From assembly GCF_019139815.1 (NCBI RefSeq), contig NZ_CP077079.1:1674001-1738000 (forward strand): 64,000 nucleotides of DNA, in the 5' to 3' direction. The notes under the pieces were generated by a model that was not told where the DNA came from, made no database searches, and worked only from the letters and a program-made list of their open reading frames with translations. The first letter of the stretch is position 1. Each line of letters opens with the position of its first letter. This stretch comes from Pseudomonas asgharzadehiana. Lineage in GTDB: Bacteria; Pseudomonadota; Gammaproteobacteria; Pseudomonadales; Pseudomonadaceae. Position numbers and translations under genes: made by a program. Shown one piece after another: positions 2,695-4,130 of the stretch.

Positions 2695-2812
2695 TACGAC
2701 AAGCTCCCTCTGTGGTCTGTAAGAATCAGTAACTAATTTTACCCTGAAAGGTTGGCGGAAAAGCAAGGCGGCAGGTTTAGGGCAGCTTGATGCAATTCCA
2801 TGTGGGAGCAAC

Positions 2813-2821
2813 TGTCTTGAT
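2813..2821 (+). repeat. IS110 subterminal inverted repeat, transposase 3' side
   Basis: TGTCTTGAT, 4 bases inside the element end. It is inverted relative to 4038-4046. Confidence 0.75.
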
Positions 2822-2907
2822 GACCCTAACTTTGGCATCGCTTTTTAAGACAGCCAAGCTCCCACAGCTTCAAGCCGTGTGACCTTCAACCACACATCGC
2901 TGCCGAT

Positions 2908-3840
2908 TCAGGCAGCGTGTTCTTTCCATTCGGCTCTATAACGCAGCATCGCGTTCAGCCTGACTAACAAAACACGCATGCATGCAATTAGCGCAACTTT
3001 TGCGCGTTTGCCTTTGTCGCGCAGTGCTTTATAGCGGGCCTGGAATTCAGGCTGTTCCCGGATGACAACCCAGCAGGCCATGTAGAGCGAGCGACGCACG
3101 GAAAACCTTCCGCCGCTAATGTGACGCGCACCTTGGTGTTTCCCACTGTCGTTGTTATACGGAGCGAGGCCCGCTAGCGCCGTGATCGGACGCCTGCCAA
3201 TCTCGCCCAGCTCCGGCAGATATGCCATTAGGCTAGCCGCCGTAATGAGCCCGATGCCCTTAACTGAGCACAGGCGTTCGACCTTTTCGCGGTCTAGCCT
3301 GTTGGCGGTTTCGCGAATCAGCTGCTCTATCGCGTTCACAGCCTTGCTCAAGTAGTCGATATGGCTCTGCAACGCCGGTTTTACTACGTCGCAGGAGGCT
3401 GTTTTCAGGCGCCTTCTGTCATCGTCCCTCTGCTGAACAAAGTTCTCTCGCTGCTGGACTAACGCGCGCAACTCGTCATGTTCCGGGCTGGTGATTCGGC
3501 TGCTTGGTGAGTCGAGAACCGCTGCGAACTGCGCAAGAGACTTTGCGTCTATCGGGTCGGTTTTAGCGTGTTGCCCCATCGCCCTGGAAAAACTCTTGGC
3601 CCGACGGGGATTGACGCAGATGACATTAAGGCCCGCAGCCTGAAGCGCCTTCATGACTTTGCGCTCATAACCGCCAGTAGCCTCCAACACCACGCGTCCG
3701 ACCTGGTGAAGCAATAGCCACCCAATCAACCCAGGGAAATCTTCTTCGGCGTTAGCGCAATTTACCCCAACGTCAACCTGATGAACTCGAGCTTCAAGGC
3801 TGTCCTTGGAAACATCAATGCCTGCTGGATAGGAAAACAT
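2908..3840 (-). CDS. IS110-family transposase (DEDD recombinase)
   Basis: The protein has 310 residues from the ATG at 3840. AGAGGG lies 7 bases upstream as ribosome binding site; an in-frame TTG two codons earlier is less likely. The N-terminal RuvC-like DEDD domain shows GIDVSKDSLEA near 8, VVLEATGGYE near 53 and AKTDPIDAKSLAQFA near 95, which supply the acidic residues. A coiled middle (QQRENFVQQRDDDRRRLK) follows. The C-terminal Tnp-like domain with the catalytic serine region is at SVKGIGLITAASLMAYLPE and ALAGLAPYNNDSGKHQGARH, the Transposase_20 hallmark. It catalyses RNA-guided excision and integration of the surrounding element. The non-coding segment is on the 5' side, which places it in the IS110 rather than the IS1111 subgroup. 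No frameshift is seen. Confidence 0.93.
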   Translation of the reverse strand: MFSYPAGIDVSKDSLEARVHQVDVGVNCANAEEDFPGLIGWLLLHQVGRVVLEATGGYERKVMKALQAAGLNVICVNPRRAKSFSRAMGQHAKTDPIDAKSLAQFAAVLDSPSSRITSPEHDELRALVQQRENFVQQRDDDRRRLKTASCDVVKPALQSHIDYLSKAVNAIEQLIRETANRLDREKVERLCSVKGIGLITAASLMAYLPELGEIGRRPITALAGLAPYNNDSGKHQGARHISGGRFSVRRSLYMACWVVIREQPEFQARYKALRDKGKRAKVALIACMRVLLVRLNAMLRYRAEWKEHAA

Positions 3841-3862
3841 AGCCAAACCCTCTTACACTAAA

Positions 3863-4021
3863 AGTGAGAGCGCTCTGGCTTGGCCCACGCTTGTAACTGT
3901 TCGAGGTGGGCTCGTTCAACTGTTCGGGCTCATGTCCAGAGCGGAGAAGTGAGTGGCAGCATGGGCTCCCACACGTGCTTTAAGCACTTCGGGCATTCAG
4001 CTTGCCACTCACCCTCTCACT
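3863..4021 (-). ncRNA. Candidate IS110 bridge RNA (target- and donor-binding loops)
   Basis: Read on the minus strand, the transposase leader forms two stem-loops. Loop 1: stem 4003-4012/3949-3958 (10 bp), inner hairpin 3975-3987, and TGTGGGAG on its 3' side (3966-3973), complementary to target CTCCCACA with core CT. Its 5' side has AATGCCC, matching 5 of 7 bases of the left target AAGCCCC. Loop 2: stem 3936-3943/3871-3878 (8 bp), inner hairpin 3902-3914, ACAGTTG on its 5' side (3917-3923), identical to the IS end next to the core, and ACAAG on its 3' side (3890-3894), complementary to the other IS end CTTGT. An 8-bp pair, 4014-4021/3863-3870, could close the whole. This is the bridge-RNA layout described for IS621. 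Transcript ends are unknown. Confidence 0.78.
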
Positions 4022-4037
4022 CTCAGCTTAATCCCGT

Positions 4038-4046
4038 ATCAAGACA
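4038..4046 (-). repeat. IS110 subterminal inverted repeat, transposase 5' side
   Basis: ATCAAGACA, the exact reverse complement of 2813-2821. It lies 2 bases inside the AG core at 4049-4050. Confidence 0.75.
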
Positions 4047-4048
4047 CA

Positions 4049-4130
4049 AGGGGGCTTGCTCCCGCTGGCAGTGGGTCAGCTGCAGATGAGCTGACTGACA
4101 GACCGCCATCGGGAGCAAGCCCCCACATTT
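4049..4130. repeat. REP pair interrupted by the IS110 element
   Basis: agggggcttgctccc (4049-4063) and gggagcaagcccccacattt (to 4130) are the two inverted arms, with an inner ctgactgac-type segment as in the other REP pairs of the window. The missing first bases of the left arm (tgtgggag) lie at 2801-2808 on the far side of the IS. Confidence 0.85.

Follow-up and report, generated by a model that had tools for sequence, protein, structure and literature searches.

A REP-inserted IS110-family element of the IS621 kind in Pseudomonas asgharzadehiana and its predicted bridge RNA

Bridge RNAs and seekRNAs entered the literature in 2024 (PMC11208160, PMC11208158, PMC11187229), and targeting of REPs by ISPpu9, ISPpu10, ISPa11 and other elements had been described in 2006 (PMC1525189). 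As presented in the IS621 reports, the core is part of all four guide pairings of IS621, and some IS621 orthologues have longer right target guides (RTGs) (PMC11208160, PMC11208158); the legend of an extended-data figure places ISPpu10 and ISPa11 among the elements with predicted guides (PMC11208160). Against this background, the novelty that the original prediction, made from the letters of the DNA, had attached to reading the guides of a REP-targeting element was overstated, given the REP targeting published in 2006, the REP targets of IS621 itself and the 2024 prediction of guides for ISPpu10. The element considered here lies in a window of 64,000 nucleotides (the whole stretch of DNA analysed) of P. 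asgharzadehiana.

The element, its insertion site and its transposase

A REP of the window carries an intact IS110-family element, of the same kind as IS621, on the minus strand (Table 1). Two more copies, 100% identical over window positions 2800-4060, are present elsewhere in the genome (6.1 Mb, one contig), and insertion into a REP is seen for all three intact copies. The CT core is present at both ends of the window element and in intact REPs of the host; in the relatives it was required by the search pattern, so that they are no test of the core. The element is flanked by two frames that read, by eye, as an Hsp70-like protein and an efflux outer-membrane protein. The inserted REP is apparently one member of an inverted REP pair (window 4049-4130), with the intact partner at about 4110-4129. 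Three fragments 94-97% identical to the element (loci L004-L006, two of them adjoining and one about 6 kb off) are also found in the host genome at C1:3854052-3860556 and are apparently a decayed older copy.

The 310-residue product matches PF01548 (80.8 bits) and PF02371 (59.7 bits), and exactly two solved sequences match it at E 0.001 or better, namely ISCro4 (9t56, E 1.4e-31) and IS621 (8wt6, E 6e-30). Read by eye, the D, E, D..D and SG segments of the IS621 alignment are kept. Indeed, the product has the DEDD RuvC-like domain and the Tnp domain with catalytic serine (S-G motif) of the IS110/IS621 type, and the non-coding region upstream of the gene folds into two hairpins with internal loops, as in elements of the IS621 type. 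The downstream non-coding region and the subterminal inverted repeats of 11-13 bp of IS1111 elements were not found: the non-coding region is upstream, and the inverted repeat GTCTTGAT/ATCAAGAC is 8 bp long in the window element and, by eye, shorter in several relatives.

Table 1. Observed and predicted features of the element (window coordinates)
Feature	Position	Strand	Support
IS110-family element, 1240 bp between two CT cores	2809..4048	-	ends by comparison of 2 genome copies and relatives
Right target (RT), CCCACA, REP half	2801..2806	-	
CT core, right end	2807..2808	- (plus strand AG)	
Left donor (LD), element right end, ACAGTTG	2809..2815	-	
Transposase/recombinase gene, 310 aa, ATG 3840-3838	2908..3840	-	PF01548 and PF02371; ISCro4 and IS621 matches
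Shine-Dalgarno-like AAGAGGG before transposase ATG	3848..3854	-	
Predicted bridge RNA body, target-binding loop then donor-binding loop	3871..4021	-	held-out covariance model R1, 134.9 bits; stem covariation
Donor-loop stem, 3' arm	3872..3878	-	stem covariation
Predicted right donor guide (RDG), ACAAG	3890..3894	-	5/5 against CTTGT
Predicted left donor guide (LDG), ACAGTTG	3917..3923	-	7/7 against right end
Donor-loop stem, 5' arm	3936..3942	-	2/6 helix pairs changed on both sides
Target-loop stem, 3' arm	3949..3960	-	stem covariation
Predicted RTG, TGTGGGAG; last two letters pair with core	3966..3973	-	8/8 against CTCCCACA
Target-loop inner hairpin, GTGCTTAAAGCAC	3975..3987	-	four pairs unchanged in 23/23 relatives
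Predicted left target guide (LTG), ATGCCCG	3990..3996	-	
Target-loop stem, 5' arm	4000..4012	-	7/13 helix pairs changed on both sides
-10-like TAAGCT	4025..4030	-	TAnnnT invariant in 23/23 leaders
CT core, left end	4049..4050	- (plus strand AG)	
Left target (LT), AAGCCCC, other REP half	4051..4057	-	

A REP-like sequence is also found inside the element: AGCTGTGGGAGCTTGGCTGTCTT, at 2847-2869 on the minus strand and about 40-60 bases before the right end, repeats the RTG word and looks on the plus strand like a degenerate inverted junction of end and target. The pattern AGCYGTGGGAGnnnnGCTGTCT is kept with changes at the same place in relatives L049, L055, L057, L058, L014, L064 and L065, the variants including CGTGGGAG in L058 and L064 and TGTGGGAA in L065. 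Another REP-like stretch lies between the gene and the right end in L107, L122 and L123 (hosts G127, G117 and G142); an intact AAGCCCGCTCCCACA lies within it in L107 and L122, and G127 has only six such sites, this one included. The elements of G288 and G307 carry yet a different REP-like stretch at this place. These internal stretches look like repeated capture of neighbouring REPs.

Fold and guides of the leader RNA

Two stem-loops had been predicted upstream of the transposase, both with an inner hairpin between a left and a right guide, and are present as described. The leader is unusually stable (z = -4.07), and 0/200 shuffles are as stable. Homologues came from 32 of 398 Pseudomonas genomes, matched at E 1e-40 or better; 78 stretches were taken for comparison, and named loci were added to them. 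The 23 distinct leaders align with a mean column identity of 80%. The stems covary as anticipated, with changes on both sides in 12 of 43 consensus pairs as against 3.8 in shuffles (0/500 shuffles reach 12), and the outer target-loop stem alone supplies 7 of the 12. Standard pairs make up 98.9% of 987 cells (0/500 shuffles as high), while further pair types in the 23 leaders do not rise above the shuffles (476/500 as high). When the structure was slid along the alignment, 30-47% of cells paired, a contrast that is partly expected, as this alignment also supplied the structure. The four pairs of the inner hairpin of the target loop are unchanged in 23/23 leaders, so covariation says nothing for or against it.

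Furthermore, a covariance search of the leader, proposed with the prediction, was carried out with a model (R1) built without close relatives, from 14 leaders of elements with transposases sharing no more than 57% identity with that of the window. R1 matches 3871-4021 on the minus strand (134.9 bits, E 7.3e-31), and its second-best match (23.4 bits) is on the opposite strand and overlaps the same stretch. Over the whole host genome R1 finds three places, all of them the three intact copies, and hence no orphan bridge RNA; Rfam gave no family for the leader RNA at gathering score, the window yielding one tRNA.

In the direction of the transposase gene, the guides are ordered LTG, inner hairpin, RTG, LDG and RDG. 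This order, and the complementarity to the target (bottom strand on the left, top strand on the right) and to the donor, are those of the IS621 type. The matches of ACAGTTG, ACAAG, the RTG and the right end all fall where they had been predicted, and the left target guide fits 5 of 7 target bases as foreseen, ATGCCCG differing from LT at positions 2 and 7. The prediction that only the right guide covers the core also holds among relatives: the LTG is followed by CT in 0/70 rows and the LDG by C in 0/71. The ordered trio RTG, LDG and RDG arose in 1 of 20,000 cases when the 201-nt leader was shuffled with its dinucleotides kept; the single words arose in 174 (RTG), 606 (LDG) and 5103 (RDG) of the same shuffles.

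On the donor side, 71 rows were compared, including both L014 and L063. These counts are partly true by construction, since the ends, LDG and RDG were found by the same letters and rows with other ends are uncounted. The LDG equals the right end in 60/71 rows, differs from it in the last letter in 4/71 (ACAGTTA versus ACAGTTG) and is shifted by one in 7/71, in the divergent hosts G363 and G018, which have an extra G at the right end. The RDG ACAAG lies opposite CTTGT in 71/71 rows, but both were located by those letters, which makes this count weak outside the element of the window. By sequence, the joined ends place a -35-like TTG-CT-T 17 nt from a -10-like TAnnnT, and TTG-CT-T and TAAGCT would form a promoter only in the circle. 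In G363 and G018 the left end is, by eye, one base shorter, so that the spacing stays 17 nt.

The homologues support the identity of the RNA, the assignment of its guides and the REP target as predicted, and the locus is almost certainly an IS110 element of the IS621 type with a bridge RNA as its leader RNA. By analogy with IS621, the joined ends of the excised circle could form the promoter from which the bridge RNA and then the transposase would be transcribed. In the complex, the donor loop would pair with the joined ends of the element (ACAGTTG / CT / TGT) and the target loop with the REP, loosely with its left half and strictly with its right half CTCCCACA, and the recombinase would exchange strands at the CT core.

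Guides, targets and host REP types

Guides were compared with targets in 70 rows with a right flank, 63 of them also with a left flank (7 without). The rows dropped were L014, which is the locus of L063; L016-L045, which coincide with other rows; L015 and L108-L120, with 43% identity or less and with ends or guides that the patterns used did not pick up; and L122 and L123, with a leader that is cut or missing. Rows L007-L013, which lie on contigs of P. palleroniana interrupted within the element, were counted as host G158, to which they presumably belong given the same match positions. Right target positions 10-14 pair with the RTG in 349 of 350 cells (70 rows), and position 15 pairs in 57/70 rows, 2 of them by wobble; core positions 8-9 pair by construction, the 3' end of the RTG having been located by those letters. 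Left positions 3-7 pair with the LTG in 309 of 315 cells (63 rows; 276 strictly, without wobble), position 1 in 46/63 rows (19 by wobble) and position 2 in 35/63. The six misses at positions 3-7 are position 4 in L012, L056 and L095 and position 7 in the three copies of the present host. In the clade with C at LTG position 7 (LTG-C), 2/5 left flanks (L012, L056) are one base shorter and fit poorly at positions 1, 2 and 4. Predicted recognition is right-heavy, strict for the right guide and loose for the left, and this characterizes a REP-targeting family.

All 57 rows with TGTGGGAG lie at CTCCCAC; insertion of the same leader at sites lacking the target, named in the original prediction as the outcome that would speak against it, was not seen among them. 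Where the guide differs, the target differs as well: RTG GGTAGGAG (L100, L101) is paired with target CTCCTACA, AGTAGGAG (L107) is also at CTCCTACA, and TTAGGAAG (L094) is at CTTCCTAC. On the left, LTG ..ATTCG is at target ..ATTCG in L102-L106, and its host G018 has 97 GAATTCGCTCCCAC sites, five AAGCCCCCTCCCACA sites and no AAGCCCGCTCCCACA; C at LTG position 7 goes with C in the target in L010, L012, L013, L055 and L056. When targets were exchanged among 23 hosts, 0/100,000 permutations reached the observed score (left 3-7, right 10-14), a count that overstates independence because hosts and elements are related; among seven guide types, with one host each picked by the analyst, 6/5040 reached it. 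As the rows are related, weight is placed on the separate guide changes, about five, and not on the permutation count. Judged from these alignments, the predicted guides and their targets change together across relatives. A plasmid search gave two short 79% matches, both in Rhizobium, and a search of viral contigs gave no relative, so the guide evidence comes from genome assemblies; two additional genome searches brought up no relatives outside the genomes matched before (14/343 and 21/307 genomes). Guides of bridge RNAs can thus be read and cross-checked from sequence alone. As a predictor of target range, which the leader had been claimed to be, the right guide is tight; the left guide predicts only positions 3-7, and its position 7 is off in this genome.

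The host genome holds 319 exact AAGCCC[CG]CTCCCACA sites and 0 sites of the reversed pattern. Position 7, beside the core, is C in 301 and G in 18 of them; the letter in the guide is G. In this host all three copies are at C sites, and they are the only position-7 mismatches among the 63 rows. Because 94% of host sites are C, three insertions out of three at C need no preference; they do show tolerance of a mismatch at this position, and strict recognition of position 7 was rejected on the same three copies. A target-side handshake pairing (C after the RDG with target G7), also considered, is possible only at G-type sites and so does not look required.

The nearest relatives, in G121 and G174, combine a G guide with a G-type host (205 G : 12 C; 376 G : 53 C), and the clade of G158, G308 and G187 combines a C guide with hosts of the C type (481 C : 53 G; 1020 : 6; 1073 : 10). 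The distant L094 also has C at LTG position 7, with C in its target. In the tree, a single change to LTG-C fits within the clade of 68% or more identity (support 100/100), and the branching order among the present element, the G121/G174 pair and the LTG-C clade is left unsettled. The simplest reading is that the element reached a C-type host recently and inserts despite the mismatch beside the core. The three identical copies with this mismatch, together with sister elements that carry the matching guide letter, constitute a natural test of guide tolerance.

Whether the fit of LTG position 7 to the host REP type reflects adaptation is another matter. That it results from inheritance and abundance has about an even chance of being the correct explanation: the single origin of LTG-C in G158, G308 and G187 (support 100/100) fits the tree, and most hosts have nearly one REP type, so that abundance and guide preference are inseparable within hosts. 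Against this, LTG-C is found in C-type hosts in 3/3 cases and LTG-G in G-type hosts in 7/8 within the clade of 68% or more identity, which is suggestive and amounts to one event. A more tentative proposal, which may well be wrong, is that REP types are a moving target followed by the left guide letter, the window element being out of step because it came from G-type hosts. If so, REP drift would be a partial escape that the element tolerates because the long right guide is what its recognition depends on, and host transfers would leave a record in the guide letters. No account of guide letters tracking host REP types was found in the titles and abstract beginnings searched, a scope that left preprints and most subscription journals outside.

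Other roles of the leader and comparison with described systems

The leader could instead be a cis- or antisense-regulatory 5' UTR controlling translation of the transposase, the guide matches being incidental and the protein reading the REP hairpin. The model for this is ISPpu9, also in Pseudomonas REPs, for which two sRNAs and a structured 5' UTR that probably conceals the ribosome site are described (PMC8450116). In line with it, the Shine-Dalgarno sequence is paired in the minimum-energy fold of 14/23 leader ends, and GTGAGAG (4014-4020) could pair with CTCTCAC (3864-3870), the duplex having -10.6 to -24.6 kcal/mol in 23/23 leaders. However, covariation does not back the Shine-Dalgarno hairpin, where it is seen in 1 pair and 134/500 shuffles do equally well (the alignment of two divergent rows is faulty at this place). 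Some cells of the long pairing are broken in the alignment and none of its pairs changes on both sides, and the joint change of guides and targets is left unexplained. A purely regulatory leader is accordingly very improbable; a regulatory role alongside that of bridge RNA is possible. The pairing of GTGAGAG, at the start of the RNA, with CTCTCAC, before the ribosome site of the transposase, competes with the Shine-Dalgarno hairpin, and one may speculate that it is a switch that frees the Shine-Dalgarno sequence and links RNA folding to translation; neither pairing of this switch is backed by covariation, and the R1 structure gives GAGAG another partner. In L064 (host G227), a duplication of about 115 bases, comprising the leader end and the gene start, precedes the transposase. 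Least probable of all is that the leader TGTGGGAG is a captured REP fragment, like the REP-like sequence near the right end of such elements and the same word at 2847-2869, since it occupies the RTG position of a conserved fold and changes along with the target in L094, L100 and L107.

With the leader taken as a bridge RNA, several described systems can be set beside the element. ISPpu9 and ISPpu10 of P. putida KT2440, likened to it here by description and not by sequence, likewise insert into REPs of Pseudomonas and have a two-base repeat, which is AG in ISPpu9 (PMC1525189, PMC8450116); orphan copies of ssr9 are described in KT2440 (PMC8450116), whereas R1 finds no such orphan in the present host. 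IS1111 elements with a seekRNA, e.g. ISPa11, share RNA-guided REP targeting in Pseudomonas, but their non-coding region is described as usually downstream with the target segments reversed, in contrast to the upstream position and IS110 order seen here (PMC11187229).

Also among the closest systems is IS621 of E. coli, which has in common with the window element the recombinase family, the upstream bridge RNA (predicted for the window element), the order LTG-RTG-LDG-RDG, the CT core, the layout of the donor guides and a REP as target; the putative junction promoter of the window element would follow the logic of that of IS621. The differences are that the left guides of the window element are without the core, while all four IS621 guides include it; that its RTG is 8 nt including the core, that of IS621 being 4 and extendable to 7; and that its LTG positions 1-2 are weakly kept and its REP is a different one. 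Presence of the core in all four guides was not taken as defining the IS110 family. In summary, the window element is ordinary in kind and well supported, a further case of the mechanism published in 2024, to which it adds right-heavy recognition and a guide letter that misfits most REPs of its host.
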